A stretch of DNA of 64,000 nt from Flavobacteriales bacterium (GTDB lineage Bacteria; Bacteroidota; Bacteroidia; Flavobacteriales_D; Sanyastnellaceae): NCBI GenBank assembly GCA_947442505.1, contig CANEVR010000006.1:1-64000 (forward strand). Reading direction: 5' to 3'. Position numbers and translations under genes: made by a program. The notes under the pieces are model-generated. The model was not told where the DNA came from, searched no databases, and saw only the letters and a program-made list of their open reading frames with translations. This document shows, piece by piece, positions 45,530 to 51,867 of the stretch. Within the stretch, counting starts at the first letter, position 1, and each line of letters starts with the position of its first letter.

Positions 45530-46615
45530 TCACACGGCCTCATCTCCCTTTTTCATTTTGATGTCGTTCACAAAGGTTTTGATTTTTTGTTCGTCCTCCA
45601 ACTTACACACCAAAAGTGTATTGCCAGAATCCACGACAATGTAACCATTCAATCCATGTAAGACCACCTGCTTGTTGTCTGGCATGTGTACGACATTGTT
45701 GCTGCAATTGTACAAACTCACATTCTTTCCTACCACACCATTGCGGTGTTCATCGTGCTTCAATTGTCCGTGCAATGAGCCCCAAGTGCCCAAATCACTC
45801 CAACCGAAATCACTCAACACCACATTGACATTCTTGGCTTTTTCCATGATTCCATAATCAATGCTGATGTTCTCACAGGCTGAATACATGCCATTGATAA
45901 AGGCCTGCTCCTGCGGGGTTCCGTAAACGGATTGACCCTCAGTAAAAGCTTTATTCATGTCTGGTAAAAACTGCTCAAATGCCGCAACGATAGAACCCAC
46001 TTTCCAAATGAAAATCCCGCTGTTCCATGAAAAATCACCACTGGCCAAAAAGTCCTTGGCCAATTCCAAATCGGGTTTTTCAGTAAAGGTTTTCACACGC
46101 TTTACACGATCATTGATGGCCGCTGCATCGTCCGCCCATTGGATATAACCGTAACCGGTATCAGGTCGTGTGGGTTTAATGCCCAAAGTCACCAGCTGTC
46201 CTTTCTCTGATTGATCAAAAGCAATTTGAATGGTCTCTTCGAACTGCGTTGTATTTAAAATCAAATGATCTGAAGGAGCTACCACCATGCGCGCATCTGG
46301 ATTGGCTGCCTGAATGCGGTGAGCGGCATAAGCGACACAGGGCGCAGTGTTGCGCATGAAAGGCTCACACAAAATTTGATTAGCGGCCAATTCCGGCAAT
46401 TGCTGATGAACCAAGTCGCGGTAGCGCTCATTGGTAACAATCAATATATTCTCCGTTGGACATAGTGTTCTGAATCGATCAAAAGTCTGCTGGATGAGGG
46501 TTCGGCCAACACCCAAAATATCGTGAAATTGCTTTGGAAAAGCAGTGCGGCTCATGGGCCAGAACCGAGAGCCGATTCCACCTGCCATGATCACGCAATA
46601 GTTGTTCTTGTTCAT
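45530..46615 (-). CDS. manC: Mannose-1-phosphate guanylyltransferase
   Basis: Makes GDP-mannose from GTP and mannose-1-phosphate. The 361 residues begin at the ATG at 46615; an upstream in-frame start at 46633 adds only six residues and falls in the promoter region. The nucleotide-binding MAGGIGSRFWPMSRTAFPKQF, the FMRNTAPCVAYAA, VAPSDHLI and TFTEKPD motifs are all present. It lacks the C-terminal isomerase domain of bifunctional ManC/AlgA, so it is the single-function type. GDP-mannose can serve mannosylation or, through gmd and fcl, GDP-fucose; fcl lies in this window. Confidence 0.95.
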   Translation of the reverse strand: MNKNNYCVIMAGGIGSRFWPMSRTAFPKQFHDILGVGRTLIQQTFDRFRTLCPTENILIVTNERYRDLVHQQLPELAANQILCEPFMRNTAPCVAYAAHRIQAANPDARMVVAPSDHLILNTTQFEETIQIAFDQSEKGQLVTLGIKPTRPDTGYGYIQWADDAAAINDRVKRVKTFTEKPDLELAKDFLASGDFSWNSGIFIWKVGSIVAAFEQFLPDMNKAFTEGQSVYGTPQEQAFINGMYSACENISIDYGIMEKAKNVNVVLSDFGWSDLGTWGSLHGQLKHDEHRNGVVGKNVSLYNCSNNVVHMPDNKQVVLHGLNGYIVVDSGNTLLVCKLEDEQKIKTFVNDIKMKKGDEAV

Positions 46616-46630
46616 TGTTAAATAAAGGTA

Positions 46631-46638
46631 CAAAAGTA
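46631..46638 (-). promoter_or_regulatory. -7 box TACTTTTG upstream of manC
   Basis: On the minus strand TACTTTTG fits TAnnTTTG exactly and ends 15 bases before the manC ATG, leaving an untranslated leader of about 11 bases. A matching -33 TTG is not evident. Confidence 0.5.
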
Positions 46639-46661
46639 ATACATCCGCGTGTTGTGGATGA

Positions 46662-47066
46662 TCACAGAATCGTCAGGATTCTGAGGTCTCCCTCCCGTCT
46701 GATTTGCCAGGTAATGGGTGATTCATAAAAAGGCTGCCCCAGCGCAGGCCATTCCACAAAATGATAGTCCGCCGTTTCCAACAAATCCTGAAATCCAATC
46801 TCCATCAACTCCTCTGCATTCTTAATGCGGTACAAATCATAATGATGAACCGTCTGCCCGCTGGGAGTTCGGTAAACATTGCAAATGCTGTACGTGGGGC
46901 TACTCACATCATGAATCCCCCATTGTTTTAGAATTTGAGATATCAAAGTGGTCTTACCTGTTCCCATCTCCGCATCCAACAGCACAACGGCCTTAGGGGG
47001 TAACTGCGCAACCAGCAATTGGGCCACTGACGCTATCTGATCAAGGGAATATTCAAACTGGCTCAT
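46662..47066 (-). CDS. tsaE: tRNA threonylcarbamoyladenosine biosynthesis ATPase TsaE
   Basis: An ATPase that works with TsaB and TsaD to make t6A37 on ANN-decoding tRNAs. The 134 residues match the small family. The P-loop is DAEMGTGKTTL, followed by VSSPTYSICNVY and the HHYDLYRI and FVEWPALG motifs. Its start overlaps the end of porX by 4 bases. I recall porX-tsaE as a recurrent neighbour pair in Bacteroidota, so the linkage looks ancestral and not specific to this genome. Confidence 0.95.
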   Translation of the reverse strand: MSQFEYSLDQIASVAQLLVAQLPPKAVVLLDAEMGTGKTTLISQILKQWGIHDVSSPTYSICNVYRTPSGQTVHHYDLYRIKNAEELMEIGFQDLLETADYHFVEWPALGQPFYESPITWQIRREGDLRILTIL

Positions 47067-48619
47067 TTGGCTTGTAATACAACAAAAGGAATCAGTACCT
47101 CTTCCAAACTAATCCCACCGTGTTGGAATGTATTGCGGAAGTGGGTAACAAAGTGATTGTAATTGTTGGGGTAAACAAAATACCCTTTGGACTTGGCAAA
47201 TACATATGAACTGCTCAACTGTGGTCTTGGCAAATGGGCCGCGGCAGGATCTTTCACTTCAAAAACATCCTTTGCATTATAATTCAAATTTTTACCAACC
47301 TTATAACGCAAATTGTTATTGGTTGCCTTGTCGCCAACAATCTTGATGGGGTCTTCCACCCGAACCGTTCCATGGTCGGTTGTAATGATGACACGCGCCT
47401 TTTGCTCCGCCATTTTTTCCAACATCTCACGCAAAGGACTGTGCTCAAACCAAGATTTCGTCAGGGACAAATACGCCGGTGTATCTTCCGCCAACTCTTT
47501 GATGACTTCCATCTCACTTCGCGCATGGCTCAGCATGTCTACAAAATTGTACACAATGACATTCAAATCATTTTGCTTCAAATTGGAGATTTGATCCACC
47601 AATTTTTTTCCAAACTGATTTTGCACAACTTTGTGGTAACTGGTCTTGACATTCATTCCCAAACGTTTCAATTGCGCTTGAAGGAAGTCATGCTCATGTT
47701 CATTTTTTGACCCCTCTTCATCCTCCTCCTTCCACCATTGGGAATGCAGTTTTTGCATCTCCGTGGGCAACAATCCAGAAAACATAGCATTTCGCGCATA
47801 CATTGTAGCTGTTGGCAAAATGGAGTAATAGATGTCTTCTTCTTCTGTTCTAAATAAATCTTTCAAGAAAGGCGCTATGACTTTCCATTGATCATACCGC
47901 AAATTGTCAATGACCACCCAATACAAGGGTTGGCCGGGCTGAACCAAGGATTTTATTTTCTTATTGAACAACGTGTGTGACATGACAGGCGCCTCAGTCT
48001 TGGCATTGATCCAATCCAAATAACGCTGCTCGTAAAACTTGACAAATTGTTGATTGGCTTCAATCTTTTGCGTCTGCAAAATTTCTTTCATCGATTCCTC
48101 ACTGGTTTGGGACAACTCTGTTGTCCAATAAACCAATTTTTTCATGAACTCCTTCCATTCATCCGCATTCATGGACTGACCCAACTGCATGGAGATTTCA
48201 CGAAATTCCTGACGATAATCTTGGGTGGTTTTCTCCTGAATCAAGCGCTTATCATCCAAATTTTTCTTGATGCTCAATAGAATTTGGTTGGGATTCACGG
48301 GCTTGATGAGGTAGTCGGCAATTTTGGAACCGATGGCGTCTTCCATGATGTGCTCTTCCTCACTTTTGGTAATCATCACCACTGGAATGTCGGCATTCAA
48401 TGCCTTGATCTCCTGAAGGGCTTGCAAACCGGAGATACCGGGCATATTCTCATCCAAAAAAACCAAGTCGAACGAACGTTCCTTGACCAAGGATACGGCC
48501 TCTCGTCCGTTGTTTACTGTAGTCACATCATATCCTTTTTGCTCTAAAAACAGCACATGCGGTTTGAGCAATTCAATCTCATCGTCCGCCCACAATATCA
48601 TTGGTTTCATTGACTTCAT
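47063..48619 (-). CDS. porX: PorX, response regulator with PglZ-type phosphatase domain controlling type IX secretion
   Basis: PorX with the PorY kinase and an ECF sigma factor controls T9SS genes in Porphyromonas. The receiver domain shows the acidic pair Asp12/Asp13 (ILWADDEIE), phospho-acceptor Asp56 (VFLDENMPG), Thr84 and Lys106 (KPVNP). After a helical linker, the C-terminal PglZ/alkaline-phosphatase-like domain has WVVIDNLRYDQW, a central TATMYARN and TTDHGTVRVEDP. The 518 residues from the ATG at 48619 match the family length; an ATG at 48610 is an alternative. The pairing with sprA in the same window fits a complete T9SS. Confidence 0.94.
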   Translation of the reverse strand: MKSMKPMILWADDEIELLKPHVLFLEQKGYDVTTVNNGREAVSLVKERSFDLVFLDENMPGISGLQALQEIKALNADIPVVMITKSEEEHIMEDAIGSKIADYLIKPVNPNQILLSIKKNLDDKRLIQEKTTQDYRQEFREISMQLGQSMNADEWKEFMKKLVYWTTELSQTSEESMKEILQTQKIEANQQFVKFYEQRYLDWINAKTEAPVMSHTLFNKKIKSLVQPGQPLYWVVIDNLRYDQWKVIAPFLKDLFRTEEEDIYYSILPTATMYARNAMFSGLLPTEMQKLHSQWWKEEDEEGSKNEHEHDFLQAQLKRLGMNVKTSYHKVVQNQFGKKLVDQISNLKQNDLNVIVYNFVDMLSHARSEMEVIKELAEDTPAYLSLTKSWFEHSPLREMLEKMAEQKARVIITTDHGTVRVEDPIKIVGDKATNNNLRYKVGKNLNYNAKDVFEVKDPAAAHLPRPQLSSSYVFAKSKGYFVYPNNYNHFVTHFRNTFQHGGISLEEVLIPFVVLQAK

Positions 48620-48624
48620 CAACG

Positions 48625-48632
48625 CAAAGGTA
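48625..48632 (-). promoter_or_regulatory. -7 box TACCTTTG for porX-tsaE
   Basis: On the minus strand TACCTTTG matches TAnnTTTG exactly, with a TTG 23 bases upstream as a possible -33 element. The box ends 5 bases before the ATG at 48619, so the transcript would be leaderless, or have a ~10-base leader if the ATG at 48610 is used. Confidence 0.55.
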
Positions 48633-48698
48633 GGGGGATTATTGCGCAAAAAATACAAGATTGGATCAATCAAATTGGGACCTATGCGAACCCTACAA

Positions 48699-48735
48699 AA
48701 TATCAAAACTTGTAATTTTTGCAAGTTTTGATATT
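48699..48735. repeat. 14-bp perfect inverted repeat, probable operator
   Basis: AATATCAAAACTTG (48699-48712) is repeated as its exact reverse complement at 48722-48735 around a 9-base loop. It lies between the divergent porX and AAA/DUF4143 genes. The TTTG at 48718-48721, a candidate -33 element for the ATPase gene, sits in the loop. The layout fits an operator where a bound protein would block RNA polymerase. A T-poor flank argues against a terminator. Confidence 0.7.
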
Positions 48736-48749
48736 ATTGAGTACTTTTG
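48718..48749 (+). promoter_or_regulatory. Promoter of the AAA/DUF4143 gene
   Basis: A -33 TTTG (48718-48721) and a -7 TACTTTTG (48742-48749), 20 bases apart, give the best full promoter match in the window. The -7 box ends 6 bases before the ATG at 48756. The -33 element is inside the inverted repeat. Confidence 0.65.
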
Positions 48750-48755
48750 TTCATC

Positions 48756-49979
48756 ATGCAGACCATTCCTCGAAAACAATACTTAAGTAAGCTCATGTCC
48801 TTTAAAGACAAGGATTTGATTAAAGTTGTAAGCGGCCTAAGACGCTCTGGAAAATCTACACTGCTTCAACTTTTTCAAAAAGAGCTCCAAAAAAAAGGCA
48901 TTGGAAAAAAACAAATTCACGTTTACAATTTTGAGCTTCCTGAAAATTACGTCAACAAAGATTGGTATGCAATCTATCAAGAAATCAAAAGCCATTTGCA
49001 TTCGCAAAAAATGAATTACATCTTTTTAGATGAAGTTCAAAACATTCCATTTTTCGAAAAACTAGTTGATGGATTGTTTGCCAATGATCTTACCGATTTA
49101 TACATAACAGGATCTAATGCATTCCTACTCAGCAGCGAACTCGCTACTTTGCTCGGAGGAAGACATATTGAAATTTCAATTTTGCCCTTTTCCTTTGAAG
49201 AATATCTCACTGCCAGAGAAATCGATACCAAAAATCGATACCTCAACTTTGAGTCATTATTCTTCGACTATGTGAATGAAACATCATTGCCAAAAGGAGT
49301 TGATTTGCGTGAAGAGGGATATGATAAAATATATGAATACCTAGAAGCCATTTATAGCACCATCATTGAAAAAGACATCACCACTCGTCACCAAATCAAT
49401 GATAAAAGAGCTTTTGGCAACATCATCCGATACCTTGCTTCTCATGTTGGAAGTAAATTATCTCCTAGTAACATTTCTAAATCGCTGACATCGGATAATC
49501 AAGCGATACACCATAAAACGGTTGAAAAATATCTTGAATACCTTACTGCCAGTTTCGTCTTTTACAAAGTCAATCGATTTGATTTAAAAGGTAAAAAATT
49601 ACTAGCAACCCAAGAAAAATACTACTTGGTGGACCCTGGTTTGATGAATATTCTTATTGGTAAAGAAAACAACCGCGATCGCGGACATATCCTCGAAAAC
49701 GTCGTTTACCTGGAACTGCTTCACCGGGGGTATAAAGTTTGGACAGGATCAGCTCGAGACCATGAGGTAGATTTTGTTTGCAAAAATCCTTCAGGAGAAA
49801 TCATTTACTACCAAGTTGCTTGGCAACTCTCCAATACAGAAACCATTGAAAGAGAGTTTAACGCACTAGAAAAAATCAAAGACAATTTTCCAAAATATGT
49901 CTTAAGTACCGACTCGTTTTTAATAGACAGAAGTGGCATTGATCATATCAATGTTTTCCAATGGTTATTGGATAAATGA
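48756..49979 (+). CDS. AAA ATPase with C-terminal DUF4143 domain
   Basis: A 407-residue ATPase of the AAA_14/DUF4143 class. The Walker A motif is VVSGLRRSGKSTLL (~25-38), Walker B is YIFLDEVQNI (Asp92, Glu93), and YITGSNAFLLS is sensor-1-like. A middle helical part has the LSPSNISKSL winged-helix-like segment, and the C-terminus (RGHILENVVYLELLHRGYKVW ... HEVDFVCKN) looks like a PD-(D/E)xK nuclease-like DUF4143 region. The family is patchy and often transferred between bacteria; its function is unknown. The ATG at 48756 follows the promoter; the in-frame TTG at 48747 lies within it. The gene splits porX from the HD gene on the opposite strand. Confidence 0.9.
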   Translation: MQTIPRKQYLSKLMSFKDKDLIKVVSGLRRSGKSTLLQLFQKELQKKGIGKKQIHVYNFELPENYVNKDWYAIYQEIKSHLHSQKMNYIFLDEVQNIPFFEKLVDGLFANDLTDLYITGSNAFLLSSELATLLGGRHIEISILPFSFEEYLTAREIDTKNRYLNFESLFFDYVNETSLPKGVDLREEGYDKIYEYLEAIYSTIIEKDITTRHQINDKRAFGNIIRYLASHVGSKLSPSNISKSLTSDNQAIHHKTVEKYLEYLTASFVFYKVNRFDLKGKKLLATQEKYYLVDPGLMNILIGKENNRDRGHILENVVYLELLHRGYKVWTGSARDHEVDFVCKNPSGEIIYYQVAWQLSNTETIEREFNALEKIKDNFPKYVLSTDSFLIDRSGIDHINVFQWLLDK

Positions 49980-49997
49980 TGTGACTGGTTAATCAGA

Positions 49998-51215
49998 TTA
50001 TTGCGCCACAAACCACTTCCGCACTTCGCGGGTCATGGGTGCCAAGCTCAAATGATCGCTGACTTCGGCAGCATTGCGCACACTGCCATCTTTCATTTTG
50101 ATGAGAATAATGTCTCCGCTTTGGCTGTAAGCGCGATTGGCCGCTTCGCCGGTCATCACAAAATAAGCCGCCTCGTGCTCCCCTATTCCTCGCTCCTTAG
50201 CCACTTCCGTAATCCGAGCTTGAAGTGCTTCGGGTGAAATGGGTTCAGTAAGAATTTGTATTTTAAACAACTTTCGTTGCACCAATTTCTGGGACAATTC
50301 CTTTAGGACAACATCATCATGGTGTTGCCAAACTTTTAGAGCACTGAGGACATCTTGGTCGTCCAATTCCAAAAAGGTGCTCAATGCTTTTGGATGCTCG
50401 AAAAAAGTAGTTTTGGTAAAATTTTGTTGCAAGAAAAACGCCAATGCAGGCGTACTCCACACCGATTGACCTTGCTCCACCAACTCCTTGGCCCGCTTGA
50501 GTACATTGACCAACATGTATTCCGCACTCAATACCGTCTTGTGCAAATACACTTGCCAGTACATAAATCTTCTGGCGACAATGAATTTCTCAATGCTATA
50601 GATGCCTTTTTCTTCGACGACCAATTGATTGTCCACCACATCCATCATTTTGATGATGCGCTCGCTGCCCACTTGACCTTCTACAACACCAGAGAAGAAA
50701 CTATCACGAGCCAGGTAATCCAATCGATCCATATCCAACTGGGAACTGACCAAGCTGTGCAGAAAAGCTTTGGGATGTTTGTTGTTAAAGATGTCAATGG
50801 CCAATTGCAAACCACCATGGAGTTCGCGGTTCATTTGGTCCATCAAGCCTGCGCTGATGTCCTCATGGTGCACACCACCGACAATGCTGTGTTCCAAGGC
50901 GTGACTATAGGGTCCATGACCGATATCATGCAGCAGAATAGCAGCCAAAAGACCTTCTTCTTCCGCTTTGGTGATTTCAACGCCGCGCACGCGCAACTCA
51001 TCCACTGCATTTTGCATCAAGTGCATCGCACCAAGGGCATGTTGAAAACGATTGTGAATCGCACCGGGATAAACCAAGTGACTCAATCCCAATTGGCTGA
51101 TGCGGCGCAGACGCTGAAAAGCCGGATGATTGATAAGTTGAAAAATAAATGGATGGCGAATCGTGATAAAACCGTAGACCGGATCGTTGATTATTTTTCG
51201 GAAGAGTTGAGTCAT
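49998..51215 (-). CDS. HD-domain phosphohydrolase, dNTPase/SAMHD1-like
   Basis: A 405-residue metal-dependent phosphohydrolase. The metal site is clear: GAIHNRFQHALG (His59), ILLHDIGHGPYSHALEH (His96, Asp97) and SQLDMDRLDYLARDS (late Asp). That order matches the SAMHD1/dGTPase-like branch of HD enzymes. The N-terminal PVYGFITIRHPFIFQLINHPAFQRLRRISQ segment is typical of the group. Likely a nucleoside-triphosphate hydrolase, but the substrate is unproven. The start at 51215 fits its promoter; an earlier in-frame start at 51260 contains the promoter sequence. Confidence 0.9.
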   Translation of the reverse strand: MTQLFRKIINDPVYGFITIRHPFIFQLINHPAFQRLRRISQLGLSHLVYPGAIHNRFQHALGAMHLMQNAVDELRVRGVEITKAEEEGLLAAILLHDIGHGPYSHALEHSIVGGVHHEDISAGLMDQMNRELHGGLQLAIDIFNNKHPKAFLHSLVSSQLDMDRLDYLARDSFFSGVVEGQVGSERIIKMMDVVDNQLVVEEKGIYSIEKFIVARRFMYWQVYLHKTVLSAEYMLVNVLKRAKELVEQGQSVWSTPALAFFLQQNFTKTTFFEHPKALSTFLELDDQDVLSALKVWQHHDDVVLKELSQKLVQRKLFKIQILTEPISPEALQARITEVAKERGIGEHEAAYFVMTGEAANRAYSQSGDIILIKMKDGSVRNAAEVSDHLSLAPMTREVRKWFVAQ

Positions 51216-51235
51216 GGTAATGGTTGAATCAGGTA

Positions 51236-51243
51236 CAAAGATA
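51236..51243 (-). promoter_or_regulatory. -7 box TATCTTTG for the HD phosphohydrolase gene
   Basis: On the minus strand TATCTTTG matches TAnnTTTG exactly and ends 20 bases before the ATG at 51215, giving a leader of about 15 bases. It also argues against the longer start at 51260. Confidence 0.6.
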
Positions 51244-51354
51244 ATGGGAAGTTCCGCCACTCCGAAGCTAGCAGCTCAACAGAAAGAAAAACAGAAACAG
51301 AGCGAAAAAGAATGACAACTTGACTCCTCATCCCTTCATCACCTCATCAACTTC

Positions 51355-51867
51355 TCACCACGCATAGGTCACCGCAACATCCACGGACATGCTGCCAGAA
51401 GAAAAGGTCAGCACACTGGGGAAAAGAGAGCCTGATTGATAAGGTTTGAATGGAACCACGCCCATTTGATCATCGGGGTTGATAAAGGTTCCACCGTCGT
51501 TGTCGTAAAGAACAACGTTATAGGTCATGGTGGGGTAGAGAATATCGATGGGAGTAGTGGGATTAAAACTGTATGAACCAGTGGCCGCAGCATCTTCATA
51601 GTAGGTGGTGGCTCGCCAGATTTCATTGGTGGTGCTTTCACCGGTAATGGCAATGTAAATATCCCCGCTGTTGCCGATATCCCATTGGCTGCCGTTGGGA
51701 TCATTGGCAGCAAAGCTTTTGACCGTCACCTTGGTAATGGTCATTTTCACCGGTGTTTTCTCGACATCACAGTTGGAACCAGTATAACCGTCTTCGCAGG
51801 TTTTTTGACATCCCGAAAAGGATAGTAGGGCAATGATAGCGGTAACCAAAAAGTATAACTTTTTCAT
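51355..51867 (-). CDS. Lipoprotein with EGF-like segment and beta-sandwich domain
   Basis: A 170-residue protein from the ATG at 51867. The lipobox IALLSFSGCQK marks lipidated Cys20. Immediately after comes CEDGYTGSNCDVE, an EGF-like cysteine knot fragment seen in many Bacteroidota lipoproteins. The rest (VKMTITKVTVKSF ... VDVAVTYAW) is all beta strand with Asp-rich loops (NDPNGS, YDNDGG, NPDDQ), resembling C2-like calcium-binding sandwiches. Function unknown. A hairpin terminator precedes it, so it probably has its own promoter. An earlier in-frame start at 52050 crosses that terminator and was rejected. Confidence 0.75.
   Translation of the reverse strand: MKKLYFLVTAIIALLSFSGCQKTCEDGYTGSNCDVEKTPVKMTITKVTVKSFAANDPNGSQWDIGNSGDIYIAITGESTTNEIWRATTYYEDAAATGSYSFNPTTPIDILYPTMTYNVVLYDNDGGTFINPDDQMGVVPFKPYQSGSLFPSVLTFSSGSMSVDVAVTYAW

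Follow-up and report, generated by a model that had tools for sequence, protein, structure and literature searches.

We describe a one-gene unit in a 64,000-nucleotide (nt) stretch of Flavobacteriales DNA (contig CANEVR010000006.1, positions 1 to 64,000; hereafter, the window), in which a palindrome overlies the promoter of a gene for an ATPase with AAA_14 and DUF4143 domains, assigned to the candidate family PDC-S01 of the PADLOC database. The best explanation of the comparative evidence, to which we assign a probability of about 0.78, is that this is a horizontally transferred unit whose STAND/ORC-like ATPase binds the palindrome of its own promoter through a winged helix and represses itself. 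The features that carry the argument are the following:

48699..48735, no strand: candidate palindromic operator of 37 bp, with arms at 48699-48712 and 48722-48735 and centre at 48713-48721
48719..48721, + strand: probable -33 element TTG, at the right edge of the palindrome centre, 20 nt before the -7 box
48742..48749, + strand: probable -7 element TACTTTTG, just past the palindrome; nearly all focal homologues have a similar box in a comparable position
48756..49979, + strand: AAA_14-DUF4143 ATPase gene, PADLOC family PDC-S01, 407 amino acids, ATG at 48756, stop at 49977-49979
49512..49514, + strand: codon of H253, first residue of the putative recognition helix, which predicts operator base pair d13

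The palindrome arms, AATATCAAAACTTG on the left and CAAGTTTTGATATT on the right, match perfectly over 14 bp around a 9-bp centre and, when extended to 17 nt, pair at 16 of the 17 positions. This is the top-scoring inverted repeat of the window (14.5), one equally strong site being found in six first-order Markov sequences of 64 kb taken together. Stronger proof that the element is real comes from its conservation: it stands upstream of 28 of the 29 distinct genes of the ATPase's own (focal) subfamily that have complete upstream DNA. The first-pass annotation of this DNA had noticed the perfect 14-bp repeat with a -33 element in its loop and had named absence of the repeat upstream of homologues as a result that would speak against a self-regulated unit; the repeat is indeed there, and the homologues have it. 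The 29 genes derive from 31 focal loci after removal of L102, in which the contig cuts off the 5' end of the gene, and L167, which is not in the deduplicated gene list and whose match to L095 equals that of L101 in length and in DNA identity. The gene tables omit 14 loci with no gene passing the motif filter, and three loci (L096, L155 and L163) were added to the focal set by hand. L096 has GEST in place of GKST as its Walker A motif and L163 an in-frame stop early in the gene; both keep the palindrome.

Geometry is fixed along with sequence. The focal palindromes are mostly centred 39 bp before the ATG with a 9-nt centre, and follow the consensus AATTATCAAAACTTG-N9-CAAGTTTTGATAATT, after which come -7 boxes resembling TATCTTTG. 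The -33 and -7 elements were assigned by the Bacteroidota promoter consensus. Because the -7 box lies so near the ATG (six nt before it in the window, about 4-6 nt for the conserved box) and downstream of the palindrome, the ATPase mRNA should be nearly leaderless and the palindrome untranscribed. Complementary arms could fold, and we considered an RNA hairpin in a leader; we rejected this explanation as scarcely credible, given the position of the palindrome upstream of the -7 box, the lack of wobble bias among its mismatches (11 G-T against 13 A-C) and the absence of any Rfam match in 46500-51500. The same position and the near-equality of the two mismatch types suggest that the palindrome acts as DNA.

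Changes between the two arms are symmetric. At the 13th base from the centre (d13), all 28 palindromes are paired (17.5 expected), with two pair types, C:G in 21 and T:A in 7; d14 is likewise paired in 28 of 28 and d16 in 27 of 28 (19.1 expected). The two operator classes correspond to a single position of the protein. Of 282 variable columns, column 253 alone separates the C:G operators, which go with histidine or arginine (21 of 21), from the T:A operators, which go with asparagine (7 of 7), and in the tree well-supported branches force the conclusion that the T:A class arose twice. Three genes fetched later served as a held-out test and agreed with this at d13, L252 having H with C, and L253 and L255 both N with T. 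The two R253 proteins, from L094 and L096, are the sole ones of the 28 with G:C at d14. In the wider family, H253 goes with C in 14 of 14 cases, D253 with G in 3 of 3 and N253 with T in 11 of 14. In an AlphaFold2 model of the protein (mean predicted local distance difference test score, pLDDT, 89.9; predicted template modelling score, pTM, 0.90), residue 253 starts helix 253-265, which comes third in a winged helix-turn-helix. Taken together, the comparison of relatives points to residue 253 as the reader of a palindrome base.

A conserved operator thus lies over the gene's own core promoter, and residue 253 matches d13 in 28 of 28 genes, as would be found for an autorepressor. The idea of a built-in repressor site, advanced in the first-pass annotation, is upheld as far as this conserved operator and its matching residue go, whereas binding and repression are our inference from them. 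The protein most likely to bind the palindrome is the ATPase itself. A host regulator could take its place, and covariation could in principle track lineage along the tree; we hold this to be improbable, since the palindrome follows the ATPase lineage across bacterial families between unrelated flanks, residue 253 alone of the 282 columns tracks the base pair through two origins, and the operator is present once in its own genome. That last result was obtained both with a 33-mer allowing up to 3 mismatches and with a degenerate pattern, and a regulon beyond the gene itself was rejected, no second operator site being present in that genome.

The mechanism that we propose is as follows. The unit would consist of the promoter palindrome and a gene for a protein with an AAA+ core, a winged helix-turn-helix and a degenerate PD-(D/E)XK-like domain. 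The ATPase, probably as a dimer, would bind the palindrome via the winged helix and cover the -33 element, and would therefore repress its own promoter. Residue 253, together with 252, would read d13 and d14 in each half-site, so that each lineage would have its own matched operator and could be regulated in a new host without host factors.

The gene is also, to judge by sequence comparison, patchily distributed and horizontally transferred. ATPase matches were found in 14 of 100 relatives at E 1e-20 and in 36 of 395 genomes of the class at E 1e-60; 16 of the latter, own genome included, hold the focal subfamily, at 62% identity or more. Patchiness had been asserted in the first-pass annotation, and these counts agree with it. 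In the 15 other genomes with the focal subfamily the ATPase is 62-75% identical to that of the window, compared with 52-62% for PorX. One copy is 95% identical at the DNA level between G462, from the window's order, and G118, from another order (its flank read through L167), and in both genomes it adjoins a tRNA-Met gene. In G462 (L095:1192-1400) the unit lies behind the tRNA gene, whose 3' end is apparently duplicated (GCCTGTGTGGGACCAC twice) in the manner of an attachment site.

Palindrome, promoter and gene together constitute the conserved unit. Averaged over the 231 pairs formed by 22 focal genes, DNA identity is 0.60 within the palindrome, 0.53 around the -7 box and 0.58 over the first 300 coding bases, against 0.26-0.28 upstream of position -65 and 0.27 past the stop. 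Pairwise alignments of similar focal copies mostly begin at -57 to -61, the edge of the palindrome, and end near the stop codon. A vehicle of transfer was sought among plasmids, phages and viral contigs, and each was rejected: the plasmid relatives (228 records) are all below 60% identity, the best at 45.5%; among 20 phage records the best full-length match listed reaches 40.5%; and four ATPase relatives on viral contigs reach 45% at best. None of nine viral contig stretches with the palindrome pattern matched the ATPase, and a PHROGs search gave no match.

In the window, the unit is a recent insertion relative to sister genomes and is flanked by direct repeats:

48648..49996, no strand: inserted segment of ~1.35 kb, absent from G002 and G005
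48637..48647, no strand: left copy of the direct repeat GATTATTGCGC, of which the G002/G005 empty site has a single copy, TTTATTGCGC
49996..50006, no strand: right copy of GATTATTGCGC, holding the last codons and the stop of the HD gene

G002 and G005 are of the same genus, with PorX proteins 98 and 97% identical to that of the window. At their site the ATPase gene is absent, and the HD stop and porX start are a few tens of bases apart. The empty site reads GGGGGTTTATTGCGCCACGAACC; its counterparts in the window are GGGGGATTATTGCGC at the left end of the insert and CAGATTATTGCGCCACAAACC at the right end, which gives a direct repeat of 10-11 bp around the insert. The guanine and cytosine (GC) content of the insert, 35.2%, is the lowest among 1254 equal-size windows of the 64 kb. 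The insertion part of an earlier claim that the gene is mobile is thereby substantiated, and comparison of the interval also disposes of the objection that the gene might sit at the same place in all relatives.

One might suppose instead that the gene is ancestral at the porX-HD junction and disappeared from the sister species through recombination of the direct repeats, which would allow precise loss; losses do occur, as internally deleted copies elsewhere show, and distant DUF4143 paralogues lie at the HD 3' end in G001 and G004. We give this little weight in view of the patchy distribution among the 100 relatives, the GC content of the insert and the fact that the ATPase is more similar to its copies in genomes of the class than PorX is to its own in the same genomes. 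In both G001 and G004, the HD gene and porX diverge, with the paralogue next to the HD 3' end. G003 has an unrelated insert of 3.1 kb with a 777-residue open frame at the same HD-porX junction (L055:717-3835), with TTATTGC on both sides. Because of this insert and of the paralogues in G001 and G004, we regard the HD 3' end as a repeated landing place. For the paralogue L001, no clean empty site was found at its parA flank.

Direct repeats also accompany other members of the wider family. Repeats of at least 16 bp within 400 bp flank 19 of 142 genes and 2 of 191 control open reading frames (ORFs; Fisher P 3.7e-6), one of the two control ORFs lying in the L021 locus. Their lengths vary, from 11 bp (L006) and 20 bp (L097) through 28 bp and longer to 124 aligned bp (L158) and ~262 aligned bp (L100), and some of those found elsewhere (for example, L021, L105 and L011) may be dispersed genomic repeats. 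In three of the 19 repeat-flanked genes (L007, L020 and L196), the repeat is a copy of the palindrome after the stop.

These observations bear on a different explanation, namely, that the palindrome serves chiefly in movement, as an end or target site bound by an ORC/IstB/TnsC-like ATPase to mobilise the unit, with regulation secondary. DNA similarity does start at the palindrome's outer edge, three of 100 genes tested (those just named) have a palindrome copy within ~16 bp after the stop, and direct repeats flank the 19 genes. Furthermore, there are solo palindromes (L144 and L152) and, in L141 and L151, intact palindromes followed by genes with internal deletions. We nevertheless find this explanation rather unlikely: the window has no second palindrome and most copies have one, the unit lacks a transposase, integrase or strand-transfer domain, direct repeats that range from 10 to ~260 bp are untypical of a transposase, and an operator needs just such a fixed position over the -33 element.

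A scan of the 395 genomes of the class with the degenerate operator pattern returned 16 sites in 15 genomes, compared with one site for the reversed control. Ten sites adjoin full-length genes (nine genomes, with two sites in G078), two adjoin deleted genes (G172 and G194), two are solo (G479 and G240) and two lie inside open frames (G370 and G229), probably by chance. Among the deleted copies, L141:1501-1609 keeps the last 16 residues of the ATPase behind the intact palindrome, and in L151:1102-1529 residues 1-20 are fused to 303-405. The solo palindrome of G479 (L144:1501-1529), with no ATPase, lies ~100 bp before a frame of 467 amino acids, which we presume to be mfd-like.

Upstream repeats recur in the wider family. 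An AAAAC-core geometry with 15- or 16-nt spacing was found upstream of 44 of 164 genes and in 7 of 157 downstream regions; bases outside the core, whose agreement was no search criterion, agree between the arms in 41, 40 and 40 of the 44 (13-18 expected). Among representatives below 70% identity, 45 of 93 have an upstream inverted repeat with a score of at least 10; such repeats occur upstream of 15 of 162 other ORFs, in 12 of 88 downstream regions and in 31 of 930 shuffled sequences.

Several results weigh against self-repression through a matched operator. L168 (61% identity), kept as the one miss among the 29 genes, has no palindrome, and those of L095 and L101 are weak, with symmetry at 12 of 19 positions. 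In the wider family, the AAAAC-core geometry is limited to the 44 of 164 genes, and 48 of the 93 representatives are without an inverted repeat of the above score. The side rule linking R253 to G:C at d14 is contradicted by L252, which combines H253 with G:C there. N253 occurs with C rather than T in L175 and L179, and with a doubtful site in L109. A scan across subfamilies places residue 253 first by adjusted mutual information and sixth by z, with residue 252 fourth and fifth for d14; as this wider column scan is confounded by phylogeny, we rely on the result within the subfamily. Finally, a role in defence is a candidate function suggested by the database assignment, and none of the 10 neighbour genes tested matched PADLOC.

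The protein itself matches PDLC04787 (PDC-S01) over residues 1-406 with E 1.6e-145, and Pfam AAA_14 (104 bits) and DUF4143 (97 bits), both above the cut-off. Its domains are located as follows:

48816..49208, + strand: AAA_14 ATPase domain, residues 21-151, with Walker A K33 and Walker B D92 and E93
49404..49628, + strand: winged helix-turn-helix, residues 217-291 of the AlphaFold2 model
49668..49955, + strand: PD-(D/E)XK-like C-terminal part of DUF4143, with E314, D339 and Q353, the canonical lysine replaced (QVA)

The Walker lysine and aspartate are aligned in all 164 table genes, in a table filtered on such motifs. The modelled winged helix-turn-helix has helices 217-229, 237-246 and 253-265 and wing strands 269-276 and 281-291. 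In place of the catalytic D...(E/Q)xK, the protein has D339...Q353-V-A; D..E-x-K occurs in 28 of the 164 genes and DQVA in 94, and the replacement of the lysine in the focal subfamily makes nuclease activity doubtful. PMC12988326 assigns PDC-S01 to the PD-(D/E)XK superfamily, describing an ATPase fused to such a domain, ranks it as the fourth commonest defence across prokaryotes and notes that validation is pending for most such candidates; PMC13356809 gives 10,358 occurrences in rumen genomes. The window's ATPase shares with PDC-S01 the full-length match and both domains, and the promoter operator and matching residue are features of this member. A literature search, with preprints and most subscription journals beyond its reach, found no published account of either feature.

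A search by sequence gave no convincing relative of solved structure. The best fold matches of the model are the archaeal STAND-like ATPases 2qen (PABY2304; Z 18.1) and 2fna (SSO1545; Z 17.5), which cover residues 1 to ~302 at 16-19% identity and leave the C-terminal domain uncovered; NLRs, CED-4, ORC and Avs5 follow. Model and matches agree on a STAND/ORC-type AAA+ core followed by a winged helix. The ATPase and winged-helix fold is shared with the NLR/Apaf-1/CED-4/Avs STAND ATPases (7dfv, Z 16.2; 3lqq, 15.4; 9jap, 13.0). We know of no STAND protein whose winged helix reads DNA, whereas that of the window's ATPase is predicted to do so. Orc1/Cdc6 and DnaA have an AAA+ core and then a winged helix as well (2qby, Z 13.0; 1w5t, Z 13.3). 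They are AAA+ proteins that bind DNA repeats, with autorepression in the case of DnaA. Unlike them, the window's ATPase has no replication context, a PD-(D/E)XK-like C-terminus and a single palindrome at its own promoter. In REP-RAYT and other palindrome-gene units, a gene travels with a matched palindrome. The ATPase unit resembles these, also in its solo palindromes and deleted copies, but is without a transposase domain, has its palindrome at a fixed promoter position and is usually present with one copy of it. Insertion sequences and transposons differ in having a transposase or integrase, whereas this insert holds one gene, the ATPase, and in a target duplication of constant length, which here varies.

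If the protein reads its own promoter, this would open a direct molecular approach to a candidate phage-defence family that is both very common and unexplained, with a defined 37-bp ligand and a residue-to-base rule testable by one point mutation. The palindrome promoter would serve as a reporter for the signal that releases the ATPase, and the silence and regulation of single-gene units in each new host would be explained. A STAND-like winged helix would, moreover, be given the task of reading DNA, which would connect immune ATPases with DNA binders of the Orc1/Cdc6 type. It is speculative that infection or a nucleotide signal removes the protein from the promoter and starts effector action. 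More broadly, and tentatively, PDC-S01, among the commonest candidate defences in prokaryotes, might be a self-contained sensor, repressor and effector: at rest, the winged helix would park the ATPase on the lineage-specific palindrome of its promoter, and release would simultaneously derepress the gene and free the effector. As a minimal cassette free of any transposase, the unit would then spread by landing at the 3' ends of genes, with duplicated host sequence on either side, the palindrome being also usable as an end. We consider this extended scheme less likely than not.

At the locus, the ATPase gene is flanked by porX (47063-48610, - strand), whose product combines response regulator and PglZ domains, and by the HD gene (49998-51260, - strand); gene, strand and coordinates had been given correctly in the first-pass annotation. 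Its belief that the minus-strand stretch is normally continuous in relatives is partly right: HD and porX adjoin on the same strand in G002 and G005, the two closest relatives so arranged. HD and porX are co-oriented in G000, G002, G003 and G005, and they are adjacent and divergent in 21 of the 24 PorX loci in which an HD gene was found within 1.5 kb. The significance it had attached to landing beside a regulator of the type IX secretion system is not supported: other copies adjoin unrelated genes, and G003 has its unrelated insert there. Comparison of the neighbourhoods of other copies, confined to 10 hand-picked neighbour genes, gave no support for a functional link to PorX or to this secretion system.

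The three other DUF4143 genes of the own genome (L001, L002 and L004) have inverted repeats near their starts, each of a different sequence. Two divergent DUF4143 genes of different types have a 66-bp palindrome between them in G003 (L002, L249, L250 and L066 compared); at the corresponding place, G000 and G002 lack one of the pair.
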